Shown here: positions 535-16,090 of the stretch, in pieces
Numbering within the stretch: position 1 is the first letter of the stretch
How the letters are laid out: every line of letters begins with the position of its first letter
DNA from: Bacillota bacterium
Lineage (GTDB): Bacteria; Bacillota; Proteinivoracia; UBA4975; VEMY01
Direction of reading: 5' to 3'
NCBI GenBank assembly: GCA_009711825.1
Contig: VEMY01000050.1
Span: 1 to 64,000, forward strand
DNA: 64,000 bases
Made by a program: the position numbers and the translations under genes
Notes under the pieces: model-generated
What the model saw: only the letters and a program-made list of their open reading frames with translations
What the model was told of the DNA's origin: nothing
The model's database searches: none

Positions 535-867
535 AATATGCCGGTACATATCAAAAACGCGGCACAGAGCCACGCTTCCCATAGATTAAGGACCGGCGTA
601 AGATTTAAAGCAGTCTGTACGGTAATGGATTGCAAAGGTACGACGAAATAAAGGGTGTAATGCCCCTCATTAGTCAAACCAGTTGCAGCTTTTTAATTAC
701 TTATCACCATTACAGACTGGACGGACAAAAAAACATCCTTTCCAAGTTAAGACCCTTACAGTTTAGCAAACTCTGGTTTTGCTGACAATCGTGAAATAGA
801 AATGTAACTTTGCCCAATTGGGGACGGAGGTTGGGTGAGCCATTTTCGGCAGAAAGTCGAGGGCTGT
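535..867. other. Noncoding stretch without recognised gene
   Basis: No open frame here has both a ribosome binding site and recognisable protein similarity. An 81-codon minus-strand frame across 432-677 looks fortuitous because it spans the leader hairpin. A loose inverted repeat (AGCAAAC at 765, GTTTTGCT at 776) precedes a CTGACA box at 782, a possible but weak promoter for the downstream operon. Confidence 0.4.
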
Positions 868-898
868 CCCGGACAAGGGACCTGTGCCCCTGTCCGGG
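868..898 (+). terminator. Strong hairpin in leader of the catabolic operon
   Basis: CCCGGACA-A-GGG pairs with CCC-C-TGTCCGGG around a 7-nt loop, and the run AAATGTTTTT follows. It could be a terminator/attenuator inside the 5' region of the LacI-led operon, or a dispersed GC-rich repeat. The T tract begins four bases after the stem, so termination efficiency is uncertain. Confidence 0.4.
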
Positions 899-951
899 AA
901 ATGTTTTTAGCAGGTGGCAGGATTTTGGGCAGAAATGTGGAAGTAATTTCT

Positions 952-967
952 ATGCAAACGATTGTGC
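952..967 (+). promoter_or_regulatory. LacI/PurR-type operator, probably autoregulatory
   Basis: ATGCAAACGATTGTGC matches the LacI-family palindrome pattern CAANCGNTTG exactly in its core (955-964) and 14 of 16 positions of the PurR-box pattern ANGCAANCGNTTNCNT. It lies 25 bp upstream of the GTG start of the LacI-family gene that heads the operon, where binding would block transcription or elongation. The motif is seen; the cognate regulator is inferred from position. Confidence 0.6.
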
Positions 968-992
968 AAAGGATTGTGAAGGGGAGAACGCT

Positions 993-2012
993 GTGGTTAC
1001 GATTAAAGATGTTGCTTTGCGGGCTGGTGTTTCCGCCAGTACCGTTTCGAGAGCTTTAAGCGGTAAAATTCCTGTGGACCCGGCTACCCGGGACAGGGTG
1101 CTCCAGGCGGTGGAGGAGCTGGGCTACCGACCCAATGTCATTGCTCAGGGTTTAAAATTCGGTCGTTCCCAGACCATCGGTCTGATAATACCCAGCATCC
1201 GGAACTTGGTGTTTCCCGATGCAGTGCAGGGGATATCCCAGGTTGCTCGGGAGCGGGGATATAATGTAATACTTTGTGACAGTGAGGAAGACCCGGAGCT
1301 GGAGCGGGAATTAGTGGATAATTTGCACCGGCGTTTGGTGGATGGGTTGATTCTTTCTACCGCCCGGGGCAATGGTGAACATATTGAAGCATTGCGTAAG
1401 GCCGGGTGTCCGGTTGTGCTTTTGCTCCGGCATCTGGGCGCCTCTGTGGATGCTGTTATCGCTGACAATTACCAGGGTGGGCAGCTGGCGGGCAACTTCC
1501 TTGCCGACCAGGGGTTTCGGAAGCTGGCAATAGTAAGCGGGCCTCGGGATTTGGATTTGTTTCAGCAAAGATTTCAGGGGTTTGTCGATGCACTGAAAGA
1601 AGCCGACTTGGTTGTGCCCGAGCCAATGATTGTCCAGGCCACATCCGCATGGCAGGAATCGTACAAAGGGATGTTGGCGCTGTTGGACAGGGGTTCGGTG
1701 CCGGAAGCGGTTTTCGCCACCAGCGATCCCCAGGCTCTGGGCGTAATGAAAGCGATTCGGGAGCGGGGATTACGGGTGCCGGACGATATCTCCGTCCTGG
1801 GCTTTGATAATCTGGAACACTCATCATTGATGGACCCACCCTTAACCACCATCAGTCAACCCTTTTTTGAGATGGGCCGCCGGGCGGCCCAGCGCCTGTT
1901 TGAACTGCAGGTTGCAAAAAAGCCTCTGCCCCCCAATGTGGAGAAACTGCCTGTGGAGTTGGTGGTCAGGGATTCGGTTCGGATTACAACTGAGACGGGA
2001 GTGAGAGTGTGA
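993..2012 (+). CDS. LacI-family transcriptional regulator of the catabolic operon
   Basis: This is a 339-aa LacI/GalR repressor. The N-terminal helix-turn-helix and hinge read [20 protein letters not shown] and then [13 protein letters not shown] periplasmic-binding-protein-like effector domain follows ([41 protein letters not shown]). The start chosen is GTG 993 with AAGGGGAG at 979; the frame is open further upstream, but that part has no similarity to the family. Its last four bases overlap the next gene (GTGA), so it is translated as part of the operon. It likely senses a sugar-derived inducer of the pathway. A LacI-type operator sits just upstream. Confidence 0.93.
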
Positions 2013-3103
2013 AAGCAAAGGCAATGGTCCTGGAGGAGTTTAACAAACCTTTAGTGCTTCGCGATTTTGAAATCCCCCATCCGAAGCCGGGGCAGCTGCT
2101 GGTACGGATGTTGGCTGCCGGGGTTTGCGGCTCCGACCTACATATGTACCAAGGAGAGGATCCCCGCACCCCCCTGCCCCTGATTTTGGGCCACGAGGGA
2201 GTGGGGCGCATCGAAGCAATTGGCGATGAAGCCGTCAGCGTCTGCGGTCGGCGGCTGCAAACGGGCGACGTTGTTCTCTGGAACCGGGGTGTGAGTTGCG
2301 GACGCTGCTGGTATTGCCAGATCCTGAAACAACCGGCCCTTTGTACTCAGCGTCAGGTCTACGGCATCAATTTGGGGTTGAACGACCCGCCGGGATTGAA
2401 TGGTTGCTATTCTGAATATATTTTGCTGCGGGAACGGACCGATTTGTTTTACGTTCCCCCGGGCGTGGATCCGGCAGCGCTGGTCTCGGCGGCGTGCTCT
2501 GGTGCTACAGTTGCCCATGGTTACGAGCTGGCGCCAGTCGGGCCTGAAGACACTGTGGTGGTCCAGGGCCCCGGTCCCTTGGGTATCTGGGCGGCGGCAA
2601 TGGCCCGGGTACTGGGCGCCGGCCAAGTAATTGTCATTGGCGGTTCTCCAGAGCGCCTGGAGCTTTGCAAACGCTTTGGTGCCACCGGTGTGCTCAATCG
2701 CCGGGAGACTTCTGTTGGTGAGCGTCAGCAAGAGATTATGGCCCTGACCGATGGGCGCGGAGCGGACCTGGTCGTGGAGGCCACCGGCCATCAGAGCGCG
2801 TTTATTGAGGGAGTTGAGCTTTTGCGTCGGGGTGGCACCTATCTCTGCACCGGCTATGCTCAACCGGTGGGGACTGCGGACCTAGACCCGTACCGACATT
2901 TGGTGGGAAGGGGCGTGAAAATTCAGGGTGTGTGGGTCAGCGACACTGCTCATGTGCGGCAGGCGTTGGCTCTGGCCCTGCGGAATCCGGAGCATTTCGC
3001 GCAAATGGTCACCCTTCGTTTGCCATTGGAACGGGCCAACGAAGCCCTGGCGGCGGTAGCTGCTAAACAGGCCCTGAAAGTGATTCTGGAGGTGGGAGCA
3101 TGA
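2009..3103 (+). CDS. Zinc-dependent medium-chain alcohol/polyol dehydrogenase
   Basis: This 364-aa MDR-family protein has the catalytic zinc ligands C40 and H62-E63 (GHEGVG), and a structural zinc lobe with C97, C100, C103 and C112. The Rossmann nucleotide-binding glycine motif is VVQGPGPLGIWAAAMA, followed by VIVIGGSPERLELCKRFGA, which points to NAD(P). Such enzymes oxidise a secondary hydroxyl of a polyol or sugar derivative. GTG start 2009 overlaps the regulator by four bases, and the stop overlaps the flavoprotein ATG. The substrate is unknown. Together with the Gfo/Idh/MocA enzyme downstream it gives the operon two separate NAD(P)-dependent dehydrogenases. Confidence 0.9.
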   Translation: MKAKAMVLEEFNKPLVLRDFEIPHPKPGQLLVRMLAAGVCGSDLHMYQGEDPRTPLPLILGHEGVGRIEAIGDEAVSVCGRRLQTGDVVLWNRGVSCGRCWYCQILKQPALCTQRQVYGINLGLNDPPGLNGCYSEYILLRERTDLFYVPPGVDPAALVSAACSGATVAHGYELAPVGPEDTVVVQGPGPLGIWAAAMARVLGAGQVIVIGGSPERLELCKRFGATGVLNRRETSVGERQQEIMALTDGRGADLVVEATGHQSAFIEGVELLRRGGTYLCTGYAQPVGTADLDPYRHLVGRGVKIQGVWVSDTAHVRQALALALRNPEHFAQMVTLRLPLERANEALAAVAAKQALKVILEVGA

Positions 3104-4878
3104 ATGAATATAGCTGCGATGTACTTGTAGTCGGGGGAGGGGGCGGTGCCCTCAGAGCAGCAATTGCCCTGGCTGAGGAGCATCCCGAGTTAAAGGTTCT
3201 CCTGGCCACCAAGGGACAGCTGGGAAAAAGCGGAGTAACCGCGGTTGCCTGTTCAGACCGGATGGCGTTTCATGCCACTCTACCCCATACACCGCCCGGG
3301 GGGGAAGATGCCTGGCGCTACCATGCGGAAGATATATATCGAATCGGCGGCTGTGTGTCCGACCCTGAGTTGGCGGCAATTCTCGCCAAAAACTCCGGTG
3401 ATGCGTTTCAGTACCTGGACGCGCTGGGGGTGCCCTTTGTCAAGGAGGGCACTGTGCCCCGGCAGTTTGTGACCGACGGCTCCGAGTATCCTCGGGCCTG
3501 TTACACCGGACCGCGCACAGCAGTGCATATCGAGGAAGCGCTGGTGCGTCGGTTTCACGCGCTTAACATACCAGTGCTGGAGCAGTGTATGGTTACACGC
3601 TTGCTCACGGATACGGCCGGAATCAATGGGGCCCTGGCCCTGCTGGGCGGAAGGGTTGTGCCAATCAGTGCAGGCGCGGTAATTCTCGCCACCGGTGGCG
3701 CCGGACTTATTTATCAGCAGCATGTGTTTCCACCCGGGATGACCGGCGATGGTTATGCCATGGCGCTGCGGGCAGGTGCGGAGTTGGTAAATATGGAGTT
3801 TATCCAAATGGGAGTGGCCTCGGTAAAGACCCGGCTTAACTGTTCCGGCAGTCTATTCCGGGCCCTGCCACGGCTGGTTGACGATAGCGGGCGTGAGTTT
3901 CTTTCCGAATATACTGGGGAAATGACGGTTGGCGACCGCTTGTCGCTTCTCTTCCGCAAAGGCGCCAGCTGGCCGGTGAGTAATGAGCATGATACCAAGT
4001 TGATTGACATCGCTGTTTACCGGGAACAAATGGCCGGTCGCCGGGTGTTCCTGGACTTTGGCGCCAACCCCGCGGGGTATGACTTTGAGGCCCTGCCGGC
4101 AAGTGACCGTAAGCGCTATCAGGATGAAATGGTCGTCGATTTGGGCAGTGCCCGAGACCAGACGCCCCTGGCCCGGCTCCAGGAAATCAATCCCGATTCC
4201 ATAGCCTGGCTGCGGGAACACGGAGTTGACTTGGAGGCAGGGGATGCGATGGAGATTGCCCTCTGCGGCCAGCACTTCCAGGGCGGGATTAAAATTGACA
4301 ATCAGGGGCAGACAATTGTGCCCGGACTCTATGCTGTTGGCGAGACCGCTGGTGGCCAGCATGGCGCCAACCGGCCTGGGGGCAACGCACTTTTAGACAG
4401 TCAGGTCTTTGGCTTTCTCGCTGCCCGGTCGGCGGCAGAACGGGCACGGGAACACAAGCAGACATCTGTAAGTGCGGCTGCAATCAAGGATGCCCAGCAT
4501 CAATTGGCGGCAGCCGGGGGATACAAGCCGCAGGAGTTCAGGGAGCGGCTTCAGCAGGTGGTTTACCGTGCCGGCGCGGTCGTACGCACCGAAGCCGGGC
4601 TCAAGCAGGGGCTGGCTGACTTAGAGGAATTGACTGCCAAGGGCATGGTGGCCGGGGACCCGGTATTGATTGCCGAAAACCATAATTTACTGCTGGTGGC
4701 CCGGGCGGTGTTGACGGCTGCCCTGTGCCGGGACGAAAGCCGGGGACCACATCTGCGTTTCGAGGATGCAGCCGGGACCCGGCCGTTGAAACGCCGGGAT
4801 CCGGAGTGGCAGAAATATATTATTATCAGCGGCGATGAGGCAGCGTTAAAGCTTGCTGTTCGCATGCCAGGGAGTTGA
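3100..4878 (+). CDS. FrdA/SdhA-like FAD-binding oxidoreductase
   Basis: This 592-aa protein belongs to the fumarate reductase/succinate dehydrogenase/L-aspartate oxidase flavoprotein family. It has the N-terminal dinucleotide-binding motif DVLVVGGGGGALRAAIAL, the substrate-domain loop TGPRTAVHIEEALVRR, and the FAD-binding signature GGQHGANRPGGNALLDSQVFG, then a helical C-terminal domain. No signal peptide or heme-binding domain is present, so it is probably cytoplasmic. It overlaps the dehydrogenase upstream (ATGA at 3100) and is followed within 5 bp by the Old Yellow Enzyme gene, so the two flavoproteins may act in sequence on an unsaturated or alpha,beta-dehydro intermediate. The substrate cannot be read from sequence. 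Confidence 0.85.
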   Translation: MNEYSCDVLVVGGGGGALRAAIALAEEHPELKVLLATKGQLGKSGVTAVACSDRMAFHATLPHTPPGGEDAWRYHAEDIYRIGGCVSDPELAAILAKNSGDAFQYLDALGVPFVKEGTVPRQFVTDGSEYPRACYTGPRTAVHIEEALVRRFHALNIPVLEQCMVTRLLTDTAGINGALALLGGRVVPISAGAVILATGGAGLIYQQHVFPPGMTGDGYAMALRAGAELVNMEFIQMGVASVKTRLNCSGSLFRALPRLVDDSGREFLSEYTGEMTVGDRLSLLFRKGASWPVSNEHDTKLIDIAVYREQMAGRRVFLDFGANPAGYDFEALPASDRKRYQDEMVVDLGSARDQTPLARLQEINPDSIAWLREHGVDLEAGDAMEIALCGQHFQGGIKIDNQGQTIVPGLYAVGETAGGQHGANRPGGNALLDSQVFGFLAARSAAERAREHKQTSVSAAAIKDAQHQLAAAGGYKPQEFRERLQQVVYRAGAVVRTEAGLKQGLADLEELTAKGMVAGDPVLIAENHNLLLVARAVLTAALCRDESRGPHLRFEDAAGTRPLKRRDPEWQKYIIISGDEAALKLAVRMPGS

Positions 4879-4882
4879 GATA

Positions 4883-6202
4883 ATGAGCAAGCACTTTCCC
4901 TACAAGTCGGCGGACCAACTGGCAGCAGATTGCCGGGAGCGAGGCCTGGATCTAAGCGTCACTGAGGAAATCAGTCTCTTGACTGAACCAGTGGCAGTTG
5001 CCGAACGTCGACTGGATAATCCGCTTGTGATTCAGCCGATGGAAGGATGTGATGGCACAGCCGATGGCCGACCGTCAGAATTAACTCATCGACGGTATCA
5101 ACGGTTTGCCGCTGGCGGCGCTGGTCTAATCTGGTTTGAAGCAACTGCCATCACCCGTAACGGACGGGGCAATCCGCGTCAGTTATGGCTTAATCCGCAC
5201 ACACTGGATAGTTTTAGCGATTTAGTTGCTTCCACCCGCTCTCAGGCGACAGGCAATCCGATTTTGCTCTTGCAGCTGACCCATTCCGGGCGCTACAGTC
5301 GGCCCGTTGGAGTGCGGGCGCCGGTGTTTGCCTTCAGAGATCCCCAGCTGGACCAGCGCACCAATGTGACCAGAGAGCATGTGCCAATATCTGACCAAGA
5401 GCTGACGGAGCTGCAACAGCAGTTTGTGCAGGCGGCAGTTTTGGCAAAAGCGGCCGGTTTTGATGGCGTGGATATAAAGGCCTGCCACCGCTACCTGGTA
5501 TCAGAACTGTTGGCTGGCCACACGCGGCCGGGCGGTTACGGAGGCAGTTTGGAAGGTCGGACCCGGTTTTTGCGTGAAACAGTGGCGGCTGTCCGGCAGG
5601 CGGTGGGCGAGGATTTTATTCTGGCGACACGGCTTAATGTCTGGGATGCGGCCCCCTGGCCCTACGGTTGGGGTGTCACGGAAGGGAGCCCGGAGCAACC
5701 GGAGCTTTCTGAGGCCCGTTGGCTGGCGGCTGATTTGTCTGAGCGCGGCGTTTCTATAATTAATGTCACTGCCGGAAACCCCTATGTGCTGCCCTACATC
5801 GGACGTCCGTTTGACAAGCCGGTGATCGGGGGCGCTCTTCCTGCAGAACATCCCCTCACCGGCGTAGAGCGGTTGCTTGGCTTTGCCGCAGAGATTCAGA
5901 GTGAGGTGCCGGAAGTGGCTGTTGTTGGCACCGGGTACTCCTGGTTGAGGCAGTACTTCCCCCAGGTGGCAGCAGCAGAGCTTGCCCGTGGACGTTCCCG
6001 CCTAGTGGGGTTGGGTCGAATGGCATTTGCCTGTCCGGATTTCCCCCTGCAGTTGGCAGCGGGAGAGCTGGAGCCCGGAAATTTGTGCACAGCTTGCAGC
6101 ATGTGCACCCAGATTATGCGGGACGGTGGCCGTACCGGCTGTGTGGTCAGGGACAGCGACGTATATCTTTCGGAATACAGGGCCGGTCACGCAAAAGCCT
6201 GA
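4883..6202 (+). CDS. Old Yellow Enzyme family NADH:flavin oxidoreductase
   Basis: This 439-aa FMN TIM-barrel ene-reductase carries NPLVIQPMEGCDGT, LLLQLTHSGRYSRP, GFDGVDIKACHRYLVSELL and GYGGSLEGRTRFLRE, all standard for the family. The C-terminus keeps a cluster of cysteines (CTACSMC followed 12 residues later by C), as in the [4Fe-4S] site of 2,4-dienoyl-CoA reductase-type members. The extra FAD/NAD domain of those enzymes is absent, so electrons must come from a partner. ATG 4883 is chosen because GGGAG precedes it; the longer frame from 4853 lies inside the previous gene. The function is inferred as reduction of a conjugated C=C generated in the pathway. Confidence 0.85.
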   Translation: MSKHFPYKSADQLAADCRERGLDLSVTEEISLLTEPVAVAERRLDNPLVIQPMEGCDGTADGRPSELTHRRYQRFAAGGAGLIWFEATAITRNGRGNPRQLWLNPHTLDSFSDLVASTRSQATGNPILLLQLTHSGRYSRPVGVRAPVFAFRDPQLDQRTNVTREHVPISDQELTELQQQFVQAAVLAKAAGFDGVDIKACHRYLVSELLAGHTRPGGYGGSLEGRTRFLRETVAAVRQAVGEDFILATRLNVWDAAPWPYGWGVTEGSPEQPELSEARWLAADLSERGVSIINVTAGNPYVLPYIGRPFDKPVIGGALPAEHPLTGVERLLGFAAEIQSEVPEVAVVGTGYSWLRQYFPQVAAAELARGRSRLVGLGRMAFACPDFPLQLAAGELEPGNLCTACSMCTQIMRDGGRTGCVVRDSDVYLSEYRAGHAKA

Positions 6203-6239: not shown

Positions 6240-7229
6240 ATGACGGTAAAAATAGCGATGGTTGGTTTGGGGCGTTGGGCGATGTTTTTGGGCGCAGCGC
6301 TGATGGAGACTGAAGGTGTTGAACTGACGGGCGGGTATGATTCCAGTTTGCAGAGTGCCGAAAACTTTGCCGAGATGTTTGAGGTGCCGGCGGTGGCAGA
6401 CTTGGCGGCAATTGCCGGCGATCCTGAGGTTGACGCTGTAGTGGTGGCCACCGCCAACCACACCCATCATCAGGTGGTTAAGACTTTGCTACAGGCAGGC
6501 AAGGATGTGTTTGTGGAGAAGCCGCTGGCTAACTCTTTGGCGGAGTGCCGGGAACTGATTGACCTTGCCCGGGAGCGCAAGCGAGTTCTGATGGTCGGCC
6601 ATAATTCCCGGCGCTATCCGGCTGTGCGCAAACTTAAGGAACTGATAGATGCCGGGAAAATTGGCCAGGTGCATTCAGCGACCGCGATATTTTCTTACGA
6701 GAATCTGGCCGATATCAGCACCGATACCTGGCGCAACGATCCCGCCAAATGTCCCGGTGGGCCCTTGATGCAACTGGCTGTGCATCAGGCAGATAATTTG
6801 CTCTGGTTGCTGGGGCCGGTTGAGTCGGTGAGCTGTCAGCTGATGGCACCCGTTCCAGGAGGGAAAGTGCCGGCCGGCGGACGTCTGGGCCTGAAATTTG
6901 CGTCCGGCGCCCTAGGGGTGTTGGAAAGCGATTATCTCACTACCCCCGAGAGTTTCAGCATCACTTTGCGGGGTGAAAAGGGTGAGTTCCAAAGTCGAGG
7001 GCCGGGACATGTGAAAATCTGGGATAGCAGCGGCCAAGTGGAATCACTGGACTTAGGGCGAGACGATTCGCTTCGCCAACAGATGGCTGAATTTGTCGCC
7101 TGTGTCCGGGACCGGGTCCCCCCGGAAACCGGAGGCGAAGTGGGCATCGCTGCCCTTGCTCTGATTGTTGCAGGGCTGGAGTCCGCTGAATTGGGCCGTC
7201 CTGTGGAAGTGGGTGGTTACGATGATTAA
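6240..7229 (+). CDS. Gfo/Idh/MocA-family dehydrogenase
   Basis: This 329-aa protein has an N-terminal Rossmann domain (MVGLGRWAMFLGAAL), the family motif E93-K94-P95, and the catalytic helix GGPLMQLAVHQAD with H182. Members oxidise or reduce sugar carbons with NAD(P). In C- and O-glycoside cleavage clusters, a homologue (DgpA type) makes the 3-keto sugar that allows elimination of the aglycone. AGGAGGGG precedes ATG 6240. The stop overlaps the next gene by 8 bp. The presence of DUF6379-like and TIM-barrel proteins in the same operon supports such a 3-oxidation role, but that is inference. Confidence 0.9.
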   Translation: MTVKIAMVGLGRWAMFLGAALMETEGVELTGGYDSSLQSAENFAEMFEVPAVADLAAIAGDPEVDAVVVATANHTHHQVVKTLLQAGKDVFVEKPLANSLAECRELIDLARERKRVLMVGHNSRRYPAVRKLKELIDAGKIGQVHSATAIFSYENLADISTDTWRNDPAKCPGGPLMQLAVHQADNLLWLLGPVESVSCQLMAPVPGGKVPAGGRLGLKFASGALGVLESDYLTTPESFSITLRGEKGEFQSRGPGHVKIWDSSGQVESLDLGRDDSLRQQMAEFVACVRDRVPPETGGEVGIAALALIVAGLESAELGRPVEVGGYDD

Positions 7230-9330
7230 GCGCTTAACTCCGGGTCGGATTATAGCCCTGGTTGTGGTGCTGGCCCTGTTGGGCGGTGGCATTTACCTGG
7301 AGCGCAGCCTGTATGTTGCACCTGAGTGGCCGCCCCCCCGGGAAGGGGACCCCCAGCCGGTCCGGCCCACTGCTGATGATCCTGAGTTTCATCGCACCCC
7401 GTTTGCCGAGACCTTCGAAGAGCGGCGTGAGCTCTATGTAGAGTGGGCTACCCAGCAACCGACACCGGATTCCCGGAACTCAATCTGGGCTGAATTGATG
7501 AAGATAGAGGCGGGGCAGGATTATTTTCCGGAGGCGACCATGGACTGGTTGCTGGACTTTGTCAATGCCCGCAATGATTGTGCTGATTTTGTGGTGGCAG
7601 GTCTGATCCGTCTTTACTACATGTACCCGGAAGTGCTTTCAGCCCAGCAAGAGCAGGCACTTCGTAATACACTCCTGGATTTCCAGTACTGGTTGGATGA
7701 GCCCAACCCCGATAAGGGTGCCATGGAATTATGGACTGAGAATCATCAGATTCTGATCTATACTTCTGAGTATTTGGCCGGCCAGTTGTTTCCCGAAGAG
7801 ACATTTACCAATAACGGCATGTCCGGCGTGGAGCGCATGGAAAACGCCCGCCCGAAGATTATGCGCTGGATAGACTGGCGGGTGCGCACCGGCTTTGCCG
7901 AGTGGGATTCGATTCCTTACTACCCTGAAGATATTGCCTCGCTGGCAAACATCGTGGACTTTGCCGGCGATGAAGAGCTGGCTTTACATGCTGAAATGTT
8001 ATTGGACTTGTTATTGTTTGATGTGGCAGTGGACTCTTTTTATGGCCAGTTTGCCACCTCCCACGGCCGGGCCTCCGGCCATCATGTGCAAAGCGCTGCC
8101 GGCGATTCCATGGTTTCAGTTCAGGCATTGCTCTTGGGCTTGGGACGTTTTCAGTCCAACAGCAATATGGGAGTCGTTTCGCTGGCCCTGAGCGAGAATT
8201 ACCGCCTGCCGCCGGTTATTGAGGCGGTAGCTTTGGACATGCCTGAGGAAATGATAAATTATGAGCGCCATTCGATTCCGGTGACCAAAGAGGAGGCCGA
8301 GAGGCGAGGTTTGAGCATGGATTCCCCTGAGGATATCGACATCTGGTGGGGTATGGGCGCCTTTACCCATCCTTTGGTCATTGATCAGACGATTGCCCTG
8401 GCCGGTGAATGGGACCTATGGCATTACCCGGATTTTAAAGACTTTGAGGTCTTGGGCAAGGTTTTGGGCAGAATCAATGCTTTAGGGCTAGCCAGCAGGC
8501 TGCTGGATCCTGATCCCAACGGTACATTGATGTCTGAAGTCAATAAAGTCAGCTATCGCACGCCGGACTATATGCTCAGCAATGCCCAGGATTATCGTCC
8601 GGGAGAAAAGGGCTACCAACAGCATATCTGGCAGGCGACCCTTGGTCCCTATGCACGGGTCTTTGTCACTAATCCCGATTCGCTGCGTTCAGATGGGCAT
8701 CGCCCCAGCTATTGGGGTTCCCACGGCCGCCTGCCCCGGACTGCTCAACATGAAAATGTGCTGGTAGCTGTGCATAAAATCGGTCGCTATCAGGGATTGT
8801 TGGAGGCCAGGCATTTTGCCTTCACCCATGCCTACTTCCCCCGCTGGGCCTTTGATGAAGTGGTGGAAGTGCCGGTGGACGACGGTAGCGGCTGGGTGTT
8901 TGGCTGCAAGGATGATGGTTATGTGGCCCTCTACAGCCACCTGCCCTATCGCTGGCAGGATGAAGGTATAGACGCCGATCAGGAAATCATCGCCTTGGGC
9001 CGGGAGAATGTCTGGATTACCCAAATGGGGCGCCGGGCGGTGGATGGCGATTTTGAGGACTTTGTCGCCGCGGTGAGTAATGCACCGCTGGCAGTCGATG
9101 ATTTACAGGTAAATTATAAAGCCCCAGGCGTGGGCGAGGTTGAATTTGGCTGGGAAGGACCGTTCATGGTGGACGGTCAGGAAGTTTCGCTACGAGATTA
9201 TCCCCGCTGGGAAAATCCCTACACCCAGGCCGCCTTTGATTCCCGCGAGTTTTTAATCCGGCATAACGGTCTCGAATTACACCTGGATTTTGACCGCAAT
9301 CTCCGCTACCTGGGTCAGGAGGAGAACTAA
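7222..9330 (+). CDS. Membrane-anchored large protein, paralogue A; possible glycan lyase/hydrolase
   Basis: This is a 702-aa conserved protein of no family I can name. Residues 9-26 form a single hydrophobic anchor (RIIALVVVLALLGGGIYL) followed by a Pro-rich stretch, so the body is expected outside the membrane. The middle is helical and rich in aromatic/charged motifs (MELWTENHQILIYTSEYLAG, WIDWRVRTGFAEWDSIPYY, TSHGR). A C-terminal third rich in beta-type sequence (RTAQHENVLVAVHKIG, FTHAYFPRWAFDE) follows. This resembles the alpha-toroid plus beta-sandwich layout of polysaccharide lyases, without a detectable catalytic signature. ATG 7222 overlaps the previous stop. The next gene encodes a soluble paralogue. 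Fold and role are inferred. Confidence 0.6.
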   Translation: MIKRLTPGRIIALVVVLALLGGGIYLERSLYVAPEWPPPREGDPQPVRPTADDPEFHRTPFAETFEERRELYVEWATQQPTPDSRNSIWAELMKIEAGQDYFPEATMDWLLDFVNARNDCADFVVAGLIRLYYMYPEVLSAQQEQALRNTLLDFQYWLDEPNPDKGAMELWTENHQILIYTSEYLAGQLFPEETFTNNGMSGVERMENARPKIMRWIDWRVRTGFAEWDSIPYYPEDIASLANIVDFAGDEELALHAEMLLDLLLFDVAVDSFYGQFATSHGRASGHHVQSAAGDSMVSVQALLLGLGRFQSNSNMGVVSLALSENYRLPPVIEAVALDMPEEMINYERHSIPVTKEEAERRGLSMDSPEDIDIWWGMGAFTHPLVIDQTIALAGEWDLWHYPDFKDFEVLGKVLGRINALGLASRLLDPDPNGTLMSEVNKVSYRTPDYMLSNAQDYRPGEKGYQQHIWQATLGPYARVFVTNPDSLRSDGHRPSYWGSHGRLPRTAQHENVLVAVHKIGRYQGLLEARHFAFTHAYFPRWAFDEVVEVPVDDGSGWVFGCKDDGYVALYSHLPYRWQDEGIDADQEIIALGRENVWITQMGRRAVDGDFEDFVAAVSNAPLAVDDLQVNYKAPGVGEVEFGWEGPFMVDGQEVSLRDYPRWENPYTQAAFDSREFLIRHNGLELHLDFDRNLRYLGQEEN

Positions 9331-11319
9331 ATGTCCGCCGGTGGACAGTCCCCCCGGCGGCCCCAGCCTGGGGACAGGCCTTTTCACAAGGTTCCCCTGG
9401 CAGAAACTTATGGAGAGCGCCAACGCTTGTTTCTGGACTGGGCCACTGAGCACCCGACTCCGGACGATCTCTATGCCATCTGGGCTGAGATTTGCAAGCT
9501 GGCCCGGGGCGCGGCAGCCATTGCCGGGAAGACCTTAGATTTTGCCCTGGAATTTGTGGACGCCCGCCGGGACTGCGCCGATTTTATCGTTGCCGGCTTA
9601 ATCCGGGCGCTCTACTGCTATGGCCAGAATTTGCCCGGGGAGCAGAGGGAGGCAATTGCCCGCTCGCTCTTGGGCTTCCAATACTGGTTGGATGAGCCCA
9701 ATCCCAATTTGGGCGCAATGGAGCTCTGGACCGAGAATCACCAGATTCTCATCCACAGCAGCGAGTATCTTGCTGGCCAGCTTTTCCCCGACCAGGTTTT
9801 TGCCAACGGCATCACCGGTCGGGAGCGGATGGTCCAGGCCCGGGAGCGGATTTGTAAATGGATTGACTGGCGGGTGCGCACTGGTTTTGCCGAATGGGAT
9901 TCAATTCCCTACTATCCGGAGGACCTGGCTGCCCTGCTGAATCTGGCGGACTTTGCCCAGGATCAGGAGCTGGCTCGCCAGGCGACAATGTTGGTGGACC
10001 TAATCCTGTTTGATGTGGCGGTGGACTCGTTTTATGGCCAGTATGGATCCAGCCACGGCCGGGCCTATGACGAACATATCAAGAGCGCTGCCGGTGATAC
10101 AATGGTCACCCTCCAGGCCCTGCTCTGGGGAATGGGTAGGTTTCAGACCAATAGCAATATGGGAAGTGTCGCCATGGCAACCAGCAGTTACCAAATGCCT
10201 GCTGTGTTGGAAGCAATCGGTCAGGACATGCCTGACGAAATGACGAACCGGGAACGGCATTCCATCGAGGTGGAGGCAGCGGCCGACTGGGATCTGCACT
10301 TTGACAGCGATGAAGATATCCGCATTTGGTGGGCAATGGGTGCCTTTACCCATCCCAAAGTGATAAAAAAGACTATGGAGCTGGCCGGCCGTTGGCAATT
10401 TTGGCATTATAGCGATTTCCGACCATTTCGCGCCTTGGCCCGGGTCCTGGGAACGCTGGGGCTGCTGGGTTTTGCCAGCCGGGTGTTCGATCCAGATCCC
10501 AACGGGGTGTTGATGTCCGAGGTAAACAAACTTACCTTTCGCACCCCCGATTACATGCTCTCCAACGCTCAGGACTGGCGCAAAGGGCAGAAGGGTTATC
10601 AGCAGCATATTTGGCAGGCGACCTTGGGTCCTTATGCCGTTGTGTTTGTGACCAATCCCGATTCCCTGGAAGTGGGTGACGCCAACCGGCACCGTCCCAG
10701 CTATTGGGCTTCCCACGGGCGTCTGCCCCGGACTGCCCAGTACCGCAATGTTCTGGTGGCTGTGCATAAAATCCCCGCCCGCAAAGGACTGTTGGAAGCA
10801 CGCCACTATACTTTCACCCATGCCTATTTTCCTCGCTGGGCCTTTGATGAGCTGGTGGAAGTGCCGGCAGCGGGCGGTGGCGGCTGGATTTTTGGTCGCA
10901 AGGATGAGGGGTATATTGCTTTCTACAGTCACCTGCCCTATCAGTGGCAGCAGCAGGGGATTGATGCCGACCAGGAGGTTATTGCCCCAGGGAGGGAGAA
11001 TATTTGGATTACTCACTTGGGACGCCGGGCGGTGGACGGCAATTTCACTGATTTCGTCCACCGGGTGAGTCGCGCCCCATTGACAGTAGATGGTCTGCAG
11101 GTGGAGTACGAGGCCCCAGGAGTAGGGTGCATCCACTTTGGCTGGCACGGCCCGTTAACTGTAAACGGCGCTGAGGTTTCGCTGCGGGATTACCCTCGTT
11201 GGGACAACCCCTACGCCCAGGTTCCCTTTGATTCCCGGGAGTTCACAATTGAGCACAATGGTTTGCATCTACATTTGAATTTCCCGCGCAGTCTGCGGCA
11301 ATTCAACTCCCAGGCATAG
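9331..11319 (+). CDS. Soluble paralogue B of the preceding large protein
   Basis: This 662-aa protein aligns with paralogue A along almost its whole length, sharing for example FQYWLDEPNPN, MELWTENHQILI, WRVRTGFAEWDSIPYYPED, DVAVDSFYGQ, RTPDYMLSNAQD, GYQQHIWQATLGPYA and DSREF. It lacks the N-terminal membrane anchor and begins MSAGGQSPRRPQPG, so it should be cytoplasmic. ATG 9331 follows the previous TAA directly, with AGGAGGAG as ribosome binding site. Tandem duplication with different localisation suggests the same chemistry on an outside polymer and on an imported fragment, or a heteromer. The catalytic residues are unknown; conserved His/Tyr/Arg in TSHGR/SSHGR and HRPSYW are candidates. 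Confidence 0.6.
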   Translation: MSAGGQSPRRPQPGDRPFHKVPLAETYGERQRLFLDWATEHPTPDDLYAIWAEICKLARGAAAIAGKTLDFALEFVDARRDCADFIVAGLIRALYCYGQNLPGEQREAIARSLLGFQYWLDEPNPNLGAMELWTENHQILIHSSEYLAGQLFPDQVFANGITGRERMVQARERICKWIDWRVRTGFAEWDSIPYYPEDLAALLNLADFAQDQELARQATMLVDLILFDVAVDSFYGQYGSSHGRAYDEHIKSAAGDTMVTLQALLWGMGRFQTNSNMGSVAMATSSYQMPAVLEAIGQDMPDEMTNRERHSIEVEAAADWDLHFDSDEDIRIWWAMGAFTHPKVIKKTMELAGRWQFWHYSDFRPFRALARVLGTLGLLGFASRVFDPDPNGVLMSEVNKLTFRTPDYMLSNAQDWRKGQKGYQQHIWQATLGPYAVVFVTNPDSLEVGDANRHRPSYWASHGRLPRTAQYRNVLVAVHKIPARKGLLEARHYTFTHAYFPRWAFDELVEVPAAGGGGWIFGRKDEGYIAFYSHLPYQWQQQGIDADQEVIAPGRENIWITHLGRRAVDGNFTDFVHRVSRAPLTVDGLQVEYEAPGVGCIHFGWHGPLTVNGAEVSLRDYPRWDNPYAQVPFDSREFTIEHNGLHLHLNFPRSLRQFNSQA

Positions 11320-11376: not shown

Positions 11377-11742
11377 ATGGAAATTCCTGCTTTCATGCTC
11401 AAAAAGCTCTACAAGAAAGGTTCGTTGACCAACACCGATGGCGGCGTCAGCTTTATCGTCAAGAACTCAATCTCGCCGGCAACAATAATCGGACTCGATC
11501 AATTGCTCATCGATGGCGAAGAGGTTGAAATCGCCAAGGTAAAGCTGATTACCAGCAAGAGTGAAGTAAATGCCGCTGAAATAACCGAGGAGCAGTCCCT
11601 GCATGTGAATTGGAATGACGCAATTACTTTGGTGGTGGATGGTCTGACTCTGGCGTCAGGCAGCCACAAATTGGCATTGACAATTAACACCCGGGACGTG
11701 GGCCCCCTGACTTTGGAGGTCAGCGACACCCTCGCCGGGTAG
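11377..11742 (+). CDS. Small DUF6379-like protein (C-glycoside deglycosidase beta-subunit type)
   Basis: This 121-aa protein begins MEIPAFMLKKLYKKGSLTNT, continues FIVKNSISPATIIGLDQLLIDGEEV, and ends in HKLALTINTRDVGPLTLEVSDT. The pattern of short beta strands, a GSLxNT opening and a closing NTRDVGPLxLEVSDT matches, from memory, DUF6379 proteins, the small beta-sandwich partner of TIM-barrel C-glycoside deglycosidases. No signal peptide. AGGAGGGG precedes the ATG. The operon also holds a xylose-isomerase-like barrel (15257) that could be the alpha partner, although the two genes are separated here. If the assignment is wrong it is an orphan small beta protein. Confidence 0.55.
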   Translation: MEIPAFMLKKLYKKGSLTNTDGGVSFIVKNSISPATIIGLDQLLIDGEEVEIAKVKLITSKSEVNAAEITEEQSLHVNWNDAITLVVDGLTLASGSHKLALTINTRDVGPLTLEVSDTLAG

Positions 11743-11748
11743 CAGAAA

Positions 11749-13749
11749 ATGAACGACACAAAAGCGCTTGTCCTGGAAACGGTCACTGGGCTAGCCCGAT
11801 TTCTCCATGGCTGCCAGGTAATAACCGGGGATATTGAGGTGGATGTGCCGGATGGGGAAACAATCAGCGTGGATTATCAGTTTCTGCGCCGGGACCCCGG
11901 CCCCTATCCCCTGGAAGTGCGCCGCCAGGGCGCCGATATCTGGCTGCGGGCAATTGAATCGGAAGCATGGCATGGTCCCCTGGTGGCCGACAGCTTTGTC
12001 CGGGTGTTCCCGGGGCGGGGAATTCGCAACCCCGCCCGGGGGGGCGGCGGCATTACTTTCCGCTACCCTGGCGGCGCAGAAACAGGCCGGGTGATCTTGG
12101 AGGCCTATGACCGGGGAGGAATTTGGGACGATTTGCCCAATATGGAGGTATTTATCTACGAACCCCAGGTGGCGGCCACCTTTTACGCCGATGCCTATTC
12201 GGCCTGGATTTTTGCCTGGCTTGCATCTCGGGGCGAGAAACAGTACCGGGAGCCGGCGGCCATGGCCCTGGATTTTGTCCAGCGCATTTATCCGGTCTAT
12301 ACGCCGATGATCATGGACGGACTCAACCACAGCGATTTTAAGAATCCGGCCTTTATCGAGGCAGTGGAAGAACTGGCGGTGGATTGGGCCCAGCCGGAGC
12401 AGCTGGAGCGCTGGCGAAAGCTTTTCCCAGGGATGGTTAATGATGACGCCTACTCCCCCACCAATGTCCACGCCCTGCGCTATCACTGGAGGGCAGTCCG
12501 CCAGTATTACACAGGACTGACCGGAGCCGAACCCCAGCAATATCTGAAACGAGTCTTTGCCGACGCAACTGACGACGGTTTGATTCACGACAATAATACA
12601 TCGGAGCTTTCCTTTGGCGGCCACACCGACGCCCACGATTTGACCTATCATTTGTATACCTTGGCCTGTCTTGTTCGGGGCTATCAATATCTGCCCCTGC
12701 CGGAAGTGCTGGCAACCATTGAACGGGGCGCAAACTTCAGTTTGTCCCTGACAACTTCCGGCGGCGAGGTATCGTATCTCGGCCGTGGCGCCAACAATGT
12801 CTATCATCTGGCCTCGGCATTTTACACCTTTGCGTTTATGGCCAAACAGCAGGTAGAGCAGGCGGGACGTTTCCGGCGTGCAGCGACGTTAATCCTCAAC
12901 TATATACGTGGCTTTCAACAGGAGAGCGGAGAGATTGCCACTGCTCTCAACCGCTACCCCGAGGAGCGGATGGGCTGGAATCACTGTCATACTCCCTACA
13001 ACGGGCTTACCGCCTATTTGTTGGCACAGGCTTTGCCTCTGTTGACTGAGGAAGGTGAGCAAAGTCTGGTGCTAGAGGGTAAGGCGAAGCTCCTTTACCC
13101 CGAGGCGCGATACGCTGCCGTCAGCACGAAAGATTACTATGCGGTATTCTTTGGCGGCAATGCTCTGTCTTACCCCTGGTCGGGTTGTCATAAGACAGGG
13201 GTGGCTGGACTTGCTCATCTTGGTGTCCAGGGACGTCCGGGCCAGCTGCCGATACTTGAGCAGTCGCTGCGGGAAGGCGAGTGGTCCACCGGTGACCTAC
13301 CGGATGTTGTCAGCGCTGATGGCGATACAGCCGTGCCGGCAGGTCTGGGCAGCTTGCAGGAGGAAGCTGACGGCTTCTCCCTGGAACTGGAATACGGCGG
13401 CTTTCAGGCGCGGCAAGTTTACCGTCCAGAGGCCAATGGGCTGCTGCTTGAGACAACACTAGTCTGTTTGAATCCTGGGCATTATCAATTGGCTGGACTG
13501 CCAACCATTTCGGTTTTGGTTGATTCGGGCTGGCGGCACGAGGTTTCCGACAAGTTGGTTACGTGCTCTGGGCCCAACGGCAATTTGCGTTTAGAGGTGC
13601 TGGACGTTTCTGAGCCCGGGGAATGGCAAACCTTTGAAGAATCATCTACAGCCCGGGGGCTGCATTCCAAACTGGCCCGGGTTGTGGACCGGGAGTTTAG
13701 CGTCGGAGACACACTCACCTGTCGCGTCAGGATTACGGTGGGAATTTAA
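11749..13749 (+). CDS. Large protein with probable helical-toroid plus C-terminal beta domain; function unknown
   Basis: This 666-aa cytoplasmic-looking protein has no signal peptide. Residues about 1-130 are beta-rich. The central part (about 140-430) is helical with toroid-like segments (YADAYSAWIFAWLASRGEKQ, RYHWRAVRQYYTGLTG, GGHTDAHDLTYHLYTLACLV, RMGWNHCHTPYNGLTAYLLA). The C-terminal 200 residues are beta-rich (YYAVFFGGNALSYPWSG, FQARQVYRPEANGLLLETTL). This is the layout of heparinase-II/III-like lyases and of unsaturated-glycan hydrolases, but it shares no clear sequence motif with them or with the paralogue pair upstream. It sits between the DUF6379-like gene and the sugar transporter, so it probably acts on the imported glycan. 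Function is not assigned. Confidence 0.5.
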   Translation: MNDTKALVLETVTGLARFLHGCQVITGDIEVDVPDGETISVDYQFLRRDPGPYPLEVRRQGADIWLRAIESEAWHGPLVADSFVRVFPGRGIRNPARGGGGITFRYPGGAETGRVILEAYDRGGIWDDLPNMEVFIYEPQVAATFYADAYSAWIFAWLASRGEKQYREPAAMALDFVQRIYPVYTPMIMDGLNHSDFKNPAFIEAVEELAVDWAQPEQLERWRKLFPGMVNDDAYSPTNVHALRYHWRAVRQYYTGLTGAEPQQYLKRVFADATDDGLIHDNNTSELSFGGHTDAHDLTYHLYTLACLVRGYQYLPLPEVLATIERGANFSLSLTTSGGEVSYLGRGANNVYHLASAFYTFAFMAKQQVEQAGRFRRAATLILNYIRGFQQESGEIATALNRYPEERMGWNHCHTPYNGLTAYLLAQALPLLTEEGEQSLVLEGKAKLLYPEARYAAVSTKDYYAVFFGGNALSYPWSGCHKTGVAGLAHLGVQGRPGQLPILEQSLREGEWSTGDLPDVVSADGDTAVPAGLGSLQEEADGFSLELEYGGFQARQVYRPEANGLLLETTLVCLNPGHYQLAGLPTISVLVDSGWRHEVSDKLVTCSGPNGNLRLEVLDVSEPGEWQTFEESSTARGLHSKLARVVDREFSVGDTLTCRVRITVGI

Positions 13750-13801
13750 CTGGCCCTTGCAGGCGCAGGGCAAACATCTGAAATTAAGGGAGAGGATTTG
13801 T

Positions 13802-15256
13802 TTGGCCGAGATGCAAAATAAGCATAGGCTGCCTCTGCTCACCAAACTGATTTACGGTTCGGGAGATATGTTTGGCGGCGGTTCCCTGATGTTAATAGGC
13901 TTCTTTTATCTGTTCTTCATGACTGAGGTTGCAGGGTTGAATCCGGGTCTTGCGGGTATGGTTCTGCTTCTGGGCAAGGGCTGGGATGCTGTCAGCGACC
14001 CGTTGATGGGTTGGCTCAGTGACCGCACCCGCAGCCGCTTTGGTCGGCGCCGGATTTACTTTCTGGCCGGGATTGCACCGATTTTTATCTGTTTTACACT
14101 GCTCTGGATGGTGCCGCCCTTTAGTTCCCAGATTGGCACTTTCCTGTTCTTTTTAACTGCGAATGTATTGTTTAACACTACCCTTACCATGGTAATGATT
14201 CCGTACAATGCTTTGGTTCCCGAGCTTACTCCCGATTATGACGAGCGTAGTTCGCTCACCGGTTTCCGACTGGCATTTTCCAATATCGCTTCATTGCTTT
14301 CGGCAGCGGTGCCAATGCTGATCGTCGATGCCTTCGCTAGTCCTGCCAATGGTTACCTGGTAATGGCGATGACTTTTGGCCTGCTTTTTGCCCTGCCATT
14401 CTTGGGCGTGTTCTTGGTAAGTTTTGAGACCACAAAAGAGGTTTCCAAAAGCCGGTTTAATCTGCTGGGGGATGTCACCCAGGCTCTGTCCAATCGTTCT
14501 TTCCGGCGTTTGGTCGGCGTTTACCTGCCCACTTTTCTGGGCGTTGATGTTATCTCTGCGGTTATGGTCTACTACTTAACCTATGTTCTGGGGCGGGGCG
14601 AGGGCATGCAGGTGTCTATGGTTCTTGGTCTCTTGCTCTTGTGTCAGACCCTGGCGTTGCCCGTGTATGTAAAGATAGCCCGCACACGGGGCAAGCATGT
14701 CTCATACACAACAGGCGCGCTGATTTGGATGATACTACTGCCGGTGCTCTGGTTCTTTACGCCGGAGACTCCATTCGCCGTGGTCTTGGTATTGGCAGCC
14801 ATGGTGGGGATGGGGACGGCCGGTGCGGGCTTCAGCCCGTGGGCGATGTTCCCGGATGTAATTGATGTGGATGAGTTGGTTACTGGCAAGCGGCGGCAGG
14901 GTATTTATTCTGGGGTCATGACTTTCATGCGTAAAATCTCTTCGGCCCTGGCTCTGGCTGTTGTTGGCTGGATGATTGACTGGTCTGGTTACATCGCCAA
15001 TGATGACACAATTGCCCAACCGGATGGTTTTCTGACCATGGTCCGGTTTTTGGTGGCGGTATTCCCCATCTTCTTGGTGTTGACCGGTCTTTGGTTCTGT
15101 CGCCGTTATCCCTTGAATCAACAGCGACACGATAAGTTGCGCAACATCCTGGCAACCCGGCCCGCAGGCACCGCCGACCTCAGCGGCGAAGCCGGTGAGC
15201 TGGCCGACTTGCTTTATGGGCCGCTACCTGACGATATTAATAACGAGGTGAGTTAA
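13802..15256 (+). CDS. GPH-family (glycoside-pentoside-hexuronide) cation symporter
   Basis: This 484-aa, 12-helix transporter has the family signature near its N-terminus: LIYGSGDMFGGG, then DAVSDPLMGWLSDRTRSRFG with RRR, and NVLFNTTLTMVMIPYNALVPE. Such proteins bring glycosides or uronides in with Na+ or H+. The start chosen is TTG 13802, six bases after GGGAGAGG; ATG 13811 is possible but badly spaced, and the frame upstream to 13634 overlaps the preceding gene. It is the only transporter of the operon and implies uptake of a small oligosaccharide or glycoside rather than a polymer. Confidence 0.9.
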   Translation: MAEMQNKHRLPLLTKLIYGSGDMFGGGSLMLIGFFYLFFMTEVAGLNPGLAGMVLLLGKGWDAVSDPLMGWLSDRTRSRFGRRRIYFLAGIAPIFICFTLLWMVPPFSSQIGTFLFFLTANVLFNTTLTMVMIPYNALVPELTPDYDERSSLTGFRLAFSNIASLLSAAVPMLIVDAFASPANGYLVMAMTFGLLFALPFLGVFLVSFETTKEVSKSRFNLLGDVTQALSNRSFRRLVGVYLPTFLGVDVISAVMVYYLTYVLGRGEGMQVSMVLGLLLLCQTLALPVYVKIARTRGKHVSYTTGALIWMILLPVLWFFTPETPFAVVLVLAAMVGMGTAGAGFSPWAMFPDVIDVDELVTGKRRQGIYSGVMTFMRKISSALALAVVGWMIDWSGYIANDDTIAQPDGFLTMVRFLVAVFPIFLVLTGLWFCRRYPLNQQRHDKLRNILATRPAGTADLSGEAGELADLLYGPLPDDINNEVS

Positions 15257-16090
15257 GTGTCTGTTCTTTTAGGCGTTGTAACCGATGAAGTCTCCCAGGA
15301 TCCTGTGTACGCGCTGGATTGGGCCCGGAAACATCGCTTAGATTATGTCGATATCCGCGATGTCTGGGAGCTGAATATCGCTGAGCTTAGTGAGCAGCAA
15401 CTGGCTACATTGGAAAAGCTATTGGTTGATTCGGATTTTAAGGTGAAGACGATTTGCCCCCAGCTGTTTCGGGCGGAACTTGATCCAGAGGCGGTGACCC
15501 GGGTCACTGCCAATCCGGATTTAGTTGCCACAGACCCCAGCGAGTATGCCGAGCATTTACGGCTGCTGCTCCATAGTCTGGAATTGGCCGAGCGGCTGGA
15601 CGCTCCCTATGTGCGCTGCTTCGGGTTCTGGCGGGAAGAAGAGCCTGAGGATGTCTGGGATACACTGGTGAGCGCGTTCCGGTTTGCGGCAGATTTAGCC
15701 ACCAAGCGGGACAAGATCTTGCTTTTGGAGAACGAGGCAATGACCTATGCCATTTCCGGCAGTGAGGCTGCACAGGTGATAAACGCTGTTGACAGTCCAT
15801 CCTTTGCTGCAATTTGGGATCCGGCTAATGGATTTTTCCATCCGGAAACTCCTTTCCCTGATGGTTATATCGCCCTCGGTGATCTAATCAAAGTTGTGCA
15901 CGCCAAGGACGCCGGTGCCCAGGGGTTCACTGTCATTGGCCAGGGGGAGTTGGATTGGGAGGGGCAAATTAAGGCCTTGAAACAGTTTGATTCAGTTTGT
16001 GTCTCGGTGGAACCACGTACCGCTCCTGACGACGGCACGCTGGAGCAAGCTTCCGGAGCGATTCTAGACTGGCTGCGGGCTCGGATTTAA
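15257..16090 (+). CDS. Xylose-isomerase-like TIM-barrel protein; candidate deglycosidase alpha subunit or sugar epimerase
   Basis: This 277-aa AP-endonuclease-2-superfamily barrel has the usual metal ligands in order: E158 in LLENE, D188 in WDPAN, H215 in VVHAKD and E252 in VEPR. Relatives include sugar isomerases/epimerases, inosose dehydratases and the alpha subunit of C-glycoside deglycosidases. GTG 15257 directly follows the transporter stop, with GAGGTGAG as ribosome binding site. It is the last gene of the operon. With the DUF6379-like protein and a Gfo/Idh/MocA enzyme present, a role in eliminating the aglycone from a 3-keto sugar is attractive; isomerase activity is the alternative. 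Confidence 0.8.
   Translation: MSVLLGVVTDEVSQDPVYALDWARKHRLDYVDIRDVWELNIAELSEQQLATLEKLLVDSDFKVKTICPQLFRAELDPEAVTRVTANPDLVATDPSEYAEHLRLLLHSLELAERLDAPYVRCFGFWREEEPEDVWDTLVSAFRFAADLATKRDKILLLENEAMTYAISGSEAAQVINAVDSPSFAAIWDPANGFFHPETPFPDGYIALGDLIKVVHAKDAGAQGFTVIGQGELDWEGQIKALKQFDSVCVSVEPRTAPDDGTLEQASGAILDWLRARI

Follow-up and report, generated by a model that had tools for sequence, protein, structure and literature searches.

Tandem anchored and soluble paralogues of a Bacillota bacterium, predicted to belong to an unnamed family of uronate lyases

Heparinases, chondroitinases, alginate lyases of this type and dermatan sulfate epimerase are (α/α)-toroid plus β-sandwich enzymes that act on uronic acids (PMC12088678, PMC8006597). 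In members of the polysaccharide lyase (PL) families PL12, PL15, PL17, PL21, PL35 and PL39, the distance from the Asn/His site to the catalytic Tyr is mostly 52–58 residues and that to the catalytic His mostly 204–220 residues (184 in PL12; Table 4 of PMC12088678), as in PL39 (Asn186/His187–Tyr239–His405), PL17 (His200/Asn201–Tyr258–His413), the PL15 exo-heparinase (Asn336/His337–Tyr390–His555) and PL35 (Asn192–Tyr246–His401) (PMC12088678). Here, we describe two adjacent genes, W1 and W2, in a stretch of 64,000 nucleotides from a Bacillota bacterium (contig VEMY01000050.1 of assembly GCA_009711825.1; the whole stretch is called the window), which encode a membrane-anchored and a soluble paralogue. 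W1 and W2 are probably β-eliminating uronate lyases of the same superfamily (PL8, PL12, PL15, PL17, PL21, PL35, PL39 and dermatan sulfate epimerase) in a family outside Pfam, NCBIfam and the PDB, with W1 acting outside the membrane, W2 inside, and the product passing to 2-keto-3-deoxygluconate (KDG). This reading is favoured because of the top Foldseek matches, the spacing of the putative catalytic residues and the glycoside hydrolase family 88 (GH88) and KduI genes beside relatives.

The two proteins are alike over nearly their full length, with 433 of 662 aligned columns identical (65%, 907 bits in BLASTP), and the preliminary description of the locus, which had presented them as tandem paralogues with shared sequence blocks, was right about both the gene boundaries and the blocks, which occur in W1 and W2 alike. 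The W1 frame extends from an ATG at 7222 to a stop at 9330, an alternative longer form with a TTG start at 7165 being less likely, and the W2 frame extends from an ATG at 9331 to a stop at 11319, with a strong Shine–Dalgarno-like sequence, AGGAGGAG, directly upstream. Both frames are intact, and their identity at codon positions 1, 2 and 3 is 71, 80 and 49%, respectively; since the third positions have diverged far more than the second, both copies are under constraint, and the pattern is typical of genes that have drifted apart but are kept intact by purifying selection. No further copy is present in the 3.1-Mb genome. An N-terminal anchor had been ascribed to the first protein only, in agreement with the maximum 19-residue Kyte–Doolittle hydrophobicity (2.17 at residue 8 of W1, compared with 1.14 in W2). 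Because Lys and Arg residues stand before the hydrophobic segment, W1 is predicted to have an N-in/C-out topology, which, judged from the sequences, also fits the members at loci L003 and L005 (L005b). The Pro-rich stalk, likewise assigned to the first protein only, is complete in W1, but W2 retains the end of the linker (SPRRPQPGDRPFHK); the stalk is therefore shortened in W2 and not wholly absent.

Mapping of the conserved His, Tyr and Arg residues, a check proposed in the preliminary description, identified Asn136, His137, Glu188, Ser191, Tyr194 and Arg244 (W2 numbering) as invariant in 17 of the 17 members that bear the motif ENH. In these members the His-to-Tyr spacing is 57–58 residues, and where the middle insert described below is missing, the site that holds the GYQQH His follows the first site by 206–212 residues. 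Apart from a caveat concerning His426, the residue spacing of the aligned family appears to agree closely with the published catalytic spacing. In the proposed mechanism, W1 and W2 would cleave a glycan or glycoside with a 4-linked uronic acid by β-elimination: the Asn–His of ENH would neutralize the C6 carboxylate, the C5 proton would be taken either by the His of the β domain (His426 in W2 and His468 in W1) or by the Tyr of EWxSxxY, and this Tyr would protonate the leaving oxygen, yielding a 4,5-unsaturated uronate.

Two AlphaFold models were built, with W2 and the soluble relative from locus L005 as queries, from alignments of seven rows, which limited the models; the relatives found in the genome search and in the plasmid collection were not in these alignments. 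The models show a helical N-terminal domain and a β C-terminal domain, with confident helices over much of residues 40–230, confident strands over much of residues 500–600 and poor definition elsewhere. In Foldseek searches of the PDB, heparinase III (PL12) and chondroitin AC lyase (PL8) took ranks 1–2 for the W2 model, and ranks 1–5 for the L005 model were alginate lyase PL15, dermatan sulfate epimerase 1, HepC (PL12), PL15 again and a chondroitinase. Glycoside hydrolase families with toroid/sandwich folds ranked lower in the lists.

GH88 and KduI/KduD process unsaturated uronates set free by lyases. Six of the seven ENH-bearing long relatives (forms of about 820–950 residues) have a GH88 or KduI gene as the adjacent gene on the same strand, with gaps of 0–34 bp, and three have KduD in the cluster. 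GH88 adjoins the long relative with a gap of 6 bp or less in a Bacillota genome (G066), adjoins it and is followed by GH28 in Rhizobium johnstonii, lies about 34 bp on in Ciceribacter, and is the next gene in Thioclava, where a second GH88, KduI and KduD are near. In Gemmobacter, GH88 and KduI lie upstream with KduD in the cluster, and in Pseudosulfitobacter KduI lies 4 bp upstream with KduD and GH88 near; the seventh relative (L012) has neither GH88 nor KduI adjoining. The action of KduI on unsaturated uronates from lyases is described in PMC12838403. In the close relative L004, genes for a KDG kinase and a 2-keto-3-deoxy-6-phosphogluconate (KDPG) aldolase come after the pair. Little weight was given to the KDPG aldolase in the vicinity of the L003 member, from which it is separated by 5 kb and by unrelated genes.

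Several observations weigh against a lyase function. The models are of low confidence (mean pLDDT of 59 for W2 and 61 for the soluble L005 protein, pTM of 0.55), the best Foldseek E-values, 0.003–0.1, fall short of the usual threshold and the TM-scores are low (0.15–0.20), so that the suggested comparison with lyase folds does place this superfamily at the top of both lists, but at weak significance. A profile–profile comparison (hhalign) with seven Chloroflexota heparinase II/III (PF16889) proteins was not significant (E of 0.012–0.018, probability 2.5–3.6%); the fold is therefore a prediction, and sequence homology is not claimed. The earlier guess of a lyase or heparinase fold accordingly gains from the fold search, the residue spacing and the gene neighbourhood, which are partly independent, and fails to gain from the profiles. 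Four of the ENH-bearing members (L005a, L030, L015 and L018) have Ser or Thr where W2 has His426. The GH88/KduI neighbourhood is a feature of the long forms and is not shared by the short clade, to which W1 and W2 belong, and a search of the window's genome found neither GH88 nor KduI, which means that another downstream route must be used there. GH88 would be dispensable if an exo-lyase set free the unsaturated uronate as a monomer, but an isomerase or reductase of another type would then have to act, for which the operon offers a candidate (Table 1); the genome also has a separate locus with Eda, a KDG kinase and a KdgR-like protein. Finally, the oxidoreductases of the operon and its small subunit-like protein, which weakly resembles the C-glycoside deglycosidase β-subunit (CGDB), would suit glycoside cleavage of another kind and leave room for a glycoside substrate instead of a polymer.

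W1 and W2 have no match in Pfam (E up to 1), NCBIfam or PDB sequences; in particular, PF07940 and PF16889 (heparinase II/III) were matched neither by them (E up to 1) nor by their relatives, and neither phmmer nor a family profile hidden Markov model found a match among PDB chains, an absence that rules out a close relationship only for those PL families whose structures are solved. Close relatives (41–66% identity) occur in two Chloroflexota metagenome-assembled genomes (MAGs), one Syntrophomonadaceae MAG and another Bacillota genome, and haloarchaeal Haladaptatus plasmids carry a relative of 37% identity. The long forms have an additional region at the N-terminus; they come from Rhizobium, Gemmobacter, Thioclava, Pseudosulfitobacter, Ciceribacter and Bacillota and are about 29–31% identical to W2 where measured. 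The short clade, to which the window proteins belong, carries an extra middle insert of about 85 residues. In tblastn, 199 plasmid records matched the family (123 of them from Rhizobium), and no relatives were found in the viral contigs searched. The distribution is patchy, with a member in 4–5 of 399 sampled genomes of the phylum, judged from the relatives to be Bacillota; wherever annotated, relatives are labelled 'hypothetical protein', and literature searches found no paper on the family. W1 and W2 most likely represent a new, widespread sequence family of a known enzyme kind that is unnamed in Pfam, NCBIfam and the PDB. A Chloroflexota subgroup (L031–L034), possibly non-catalytic or altered in function, no longer has the Asn, the His or the Tyr but keeps His497, Glu549 and Trp559. 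A distant family of about 750 residues (L036, L037, L040 and L046) is homologous (hhalign probability 99.1%, E of 4e-19), with TNI in place of ENH; three members tested had no Pfam match above the cut-off, and the family was set aside as a functional clue because it is likewise unnamed. Neutral-ceramidase-like proteins are encoded near members in a bacterium (L004:76-1080, a weak match) and in a haloarchaeon (L014:29378-30697).

Anchored and soluble members are also adjacent in two other genomes (L004 and L005), in opposite gene orders, and the Tat-type signal of the anchored L004 copy (TRRSFLIG) makes export of its catalytic part probable. The proposal that similar, putative active sites lie on both sides of the membrane is therefore supported by the predicted topology, by this RRSFLIG signal and by the recurrent pairing. 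The tree groups W1 with W2 (99/98) and sets the soluble proteins of L004, L005 and L030 apart in a clade of their own (100/100). This indicates that the window pair is a local duplication in which W2 probably lost the anchor, and that its pairing arose independently of that in L004 and L005; paralogues of greater age would give the same tree if gene conversion had acted between them. Sequential attack on a polymer and then on its imported product is plausible: the anchored W1 would act outside the membrane, the fragments would be imported via the MFS_2 symporter, the cytoplasmic W2 would finish them to free unsaturated uronate, and dehydrogenases of the operon would reduce this towards KDG, to be consumed through the separate KDG kinase/KDPG aldolase locus. 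We propose more tentatively, as a possibility that we would not yet press, that this is a new polysaccharide lyase family of Bacillota, Chloroflexota, haloarchaea and Alphaproteobacteria, that in its short clade the two-compartment relay came about on at least two occasions, once out of two old clades (L004 and L005) and once by local duplication with probable anchor loss (the window), and that the route to KDG in the window bypasses GH88 and KduI.

The genes around W1 and W2 form a run of about 15 kb on one strand, overlapping or separated by short gaps (Table 1), which from its gene content looks like a sugar-catabolic operon. The 121-residue protein scored 19.2 bits against PF19906 (CGDB), below the cut-off of 27.6, and PF25653 fits far better; the name of the latter, 'HMG-CoA reductase N-terminal domain', is probably misleading in a sugar operon. 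The 666-residue protein has no match in Pfam or the PDB. In the L004 operon its homologue again adjoins a homologue of the 121-residue protein, and the two may form one unit; besides the window, this neighbour was found only in L004, plus one weak match. A search with the TIM barrel found no match among PDB sequences at E up to 0.01. A conserved linkage to the same Gfo/Idh protein and TIM barrel in Haladaptatus was rejected, the resemblance being at the superfamily level only (27–28% identity). The L004 operon also encodes two proteins with a sterol-carrier (SCP2) domain (L004:4836-5648 and L004:9000-9773), which are unusual for a uronate pathway and may hint at a glycoside linked to a lipid or a triterpene.

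Table 1. Coordinates of the paralogues, their putative functional residues, the surrounding operon and a divergent subgroup (window positions unless a locus is named).
Feature	Position	Strand	Basis or remark
W1, membrane-anchored paralogue, 702 residues	7222..9330	+	Predicted uronate lyase, catalytic part outside; open reading frame (ORF), 65% identity to W2, hydrophobic N-terminus
Predicted N-terminal membrane anchor of W1, about residues 8–30, N-in/C-out	7243..7311	+	Kyte–Doolittle 2.17 at residue 8; Lys/Arg ahead
Pro-rich linker of W1, about residues 31–55	7312..7386	+	APEWPPPREGDPQPVRPTADDPEF
W1 Asn174-His175 (ENH), putative carboxylate neutralizer/catalytic pair	7741..7746	+	Invariant in 17/17 ENH-bearing members
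W1 Tyr233 (EWxSxxY), putative general acid	7918..7920	+	58 residues past His175; invariant in ENH-bearing group
W1 His468 (GYQQH), putative general base, β domain	8623..8625	+	Fits catalytic His spacing of insert-free relatives; not invariant in family
W2, soluble paralogue, 662 residues	9331..11319	+	Predicted cytoplasmic uronate lyase; ORF without hydrophobic N-terminus
W2 Asn136-His137	9736..9741	+	Invariant in ENH-bearing group
W2 Tyr194	9910..9912	+	57 residues past His137
W2 His426, putative base	10606..10608	+	Counterpart of W1 His468 in alignment
W2 His497 (THAY), candidate alternative base or metal ligand	10819..10821	+	Sole His invariant in all 20 members reaching the β domain
LacI-family regulator, first operon gene	840..2012	+	PF00356/PF13377
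Zinc-type (MDR) dehydrogenase, candidate reductase for lyase product	2009..3103	+	PF00107/PF08240
FAD-dependent dehydrogenase, SdhA/NadB-like	3100..4878	+	PF00890/PF02910
Old-yellow-enzyme-like (OYE-like) oxidoreductase	4883..6202	+	PF00724
Gfo/Idh/MocA oxidoreductase	6240..7229	+	PF01408/PF22725; stop overlaps W1 start
121-residue small subunit-like protein	11377..11742	+	PF25653 9e-24; PF19906 1e-3
666-residue protein without family	11749..13749	+	46% identical homologue in L004 operon
MFS_2 sugar symporter (glycoside-pentoside-hexuronide type), candidate importer	13664..15256	+	PF13347 1.8e-91
Xylose-isomerase-like TIM barrel	15257..16090	+	PF01261 2.8e-29
Chloroflexota subgroup without Asn/His/Tyr	L031:8827-11322; L032:8284-10794; L033:1468-3639; L034:1057-3384		

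The operon content allows another role, namely that the short-form pair of the window serves the cleavage of plant or microbial O- or C-glycosides by C3-oxidation and β-elimination, in which the FAD dehydrogenase and the Gfo/Idh protein would oxidize the sugar, the TIM barrel and the CGDB-like subunit would eliminate the aglycone, and W1 and W2 would be glycosidases or lyases that merely trim the glycoside. The presence of these genes together with an OYE-like protein, the gene sets described for Agrobacterium in PMC10628242, which are comparable, and the missing GH88 and KduI would all suit this role; however, the small protein matches CGDB below the cut-off and PF25653 far better, the TIM barrel lacks a PDB sequence match, and in the L004 operon, which retains both the pair and the small protein, none of the ORFs was recognized as a TIM-barrel isomerase. 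We therefore regard glycoside cleavage of this kind as unlikely.

A different chemistry on the predicted fold is less probable still. W1 and W2 could be uronosyl C5-epimerases or accessory uronate-acting proteins, like dermatan sulfate epimerase; human dermatan sulfate epimerase 1 is indeed at rank 2 for the L005 model, and small changes in the active site have been argued to switch between lyase and epimerase (PMC8006597). However, the GH88, KduI and KduD encoded beside the long relatives use unsaturated lyase products and not epimerized chains, and the KDG kinase and KDPG aldolase after the L004 pair, like the catabolic operons with importers, point to degradation, so that we give epimerization very little credence. 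Similarly improbable is a third possibility, in which W1 and W2 would be relatives that bind glycans or have no catalytic role, or else hydrolases on the same toroid fold: the Chloroflexota subgroup did lose its Asn, His and Tyr, and toroid/sandwich GH families do appear further down the Foldseek lists, but these three residues are invariant in W1, W2 and the ENH-bearing members, and the codon-position pattern indicates constraint on both copies.

The uronate lyase reading gives a family of hypothetical proteins from several phyla a concrete prediction, testable by absorbance near 232 nm. If true, it would account in part for the GH88/KduI/KduD operons of Alphaproteobacteria associated with plants and algae, in whose examined loci no lyase is named, and the recurrent pairing of anchored and soluble copies would offer a natural test of whether paralogous lyases divide labour across a membrane.

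Among known systems, the exo- and oligo-alginate lyases and the exo-heparinase of PL15, PL17 and PL39 (Atu3025, PDB entry 3A0O; Alg17c, PDB entry 4NEI) likewise combine a helical toroid with a C-terminal β domain, as is predicted for W1 and W2, and their adjacent Asn/His pair, with a Tyr about 53–58 residues on and a His about 210–220 residues on (PMC12088678), is similar to the putative arrangement in the present family; Atu3025 (3A0O) is the best Foldseek match of the L005 model. Unlike these enzymes, W1 and W2 have no PDB sequence match, carry the middle insert of about 85 residues and occur as tandem anchored and cytoplasmic copies. Heparinase III (PL12) and chondroitin AC lyase (PL8), the top matches of the W2 model, are unrelated in sequence at a detectable level. 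Human dermatan sulfate epimerase 1 has the same fold as predicted here and a spacing of 56 residues from His205 to Tyr261 (residues from PMC8006597), but is an epimerase of glycan biosynthesis, whereas W1 and W2 lie in a catabolic operon. The C-glycoside deglycosidase (CGD/CGE) and OGE systems, as presented in the accessible sections of PMC10628242, share with the window operon a TIM barrel, a Gfo/Idh protein, an FAD dehydrogenase and, weakly, a CGDB-like small protein, but differ in that the CGDB match of the window is below the cut-off and in that those sections mention no toroid-type protein.

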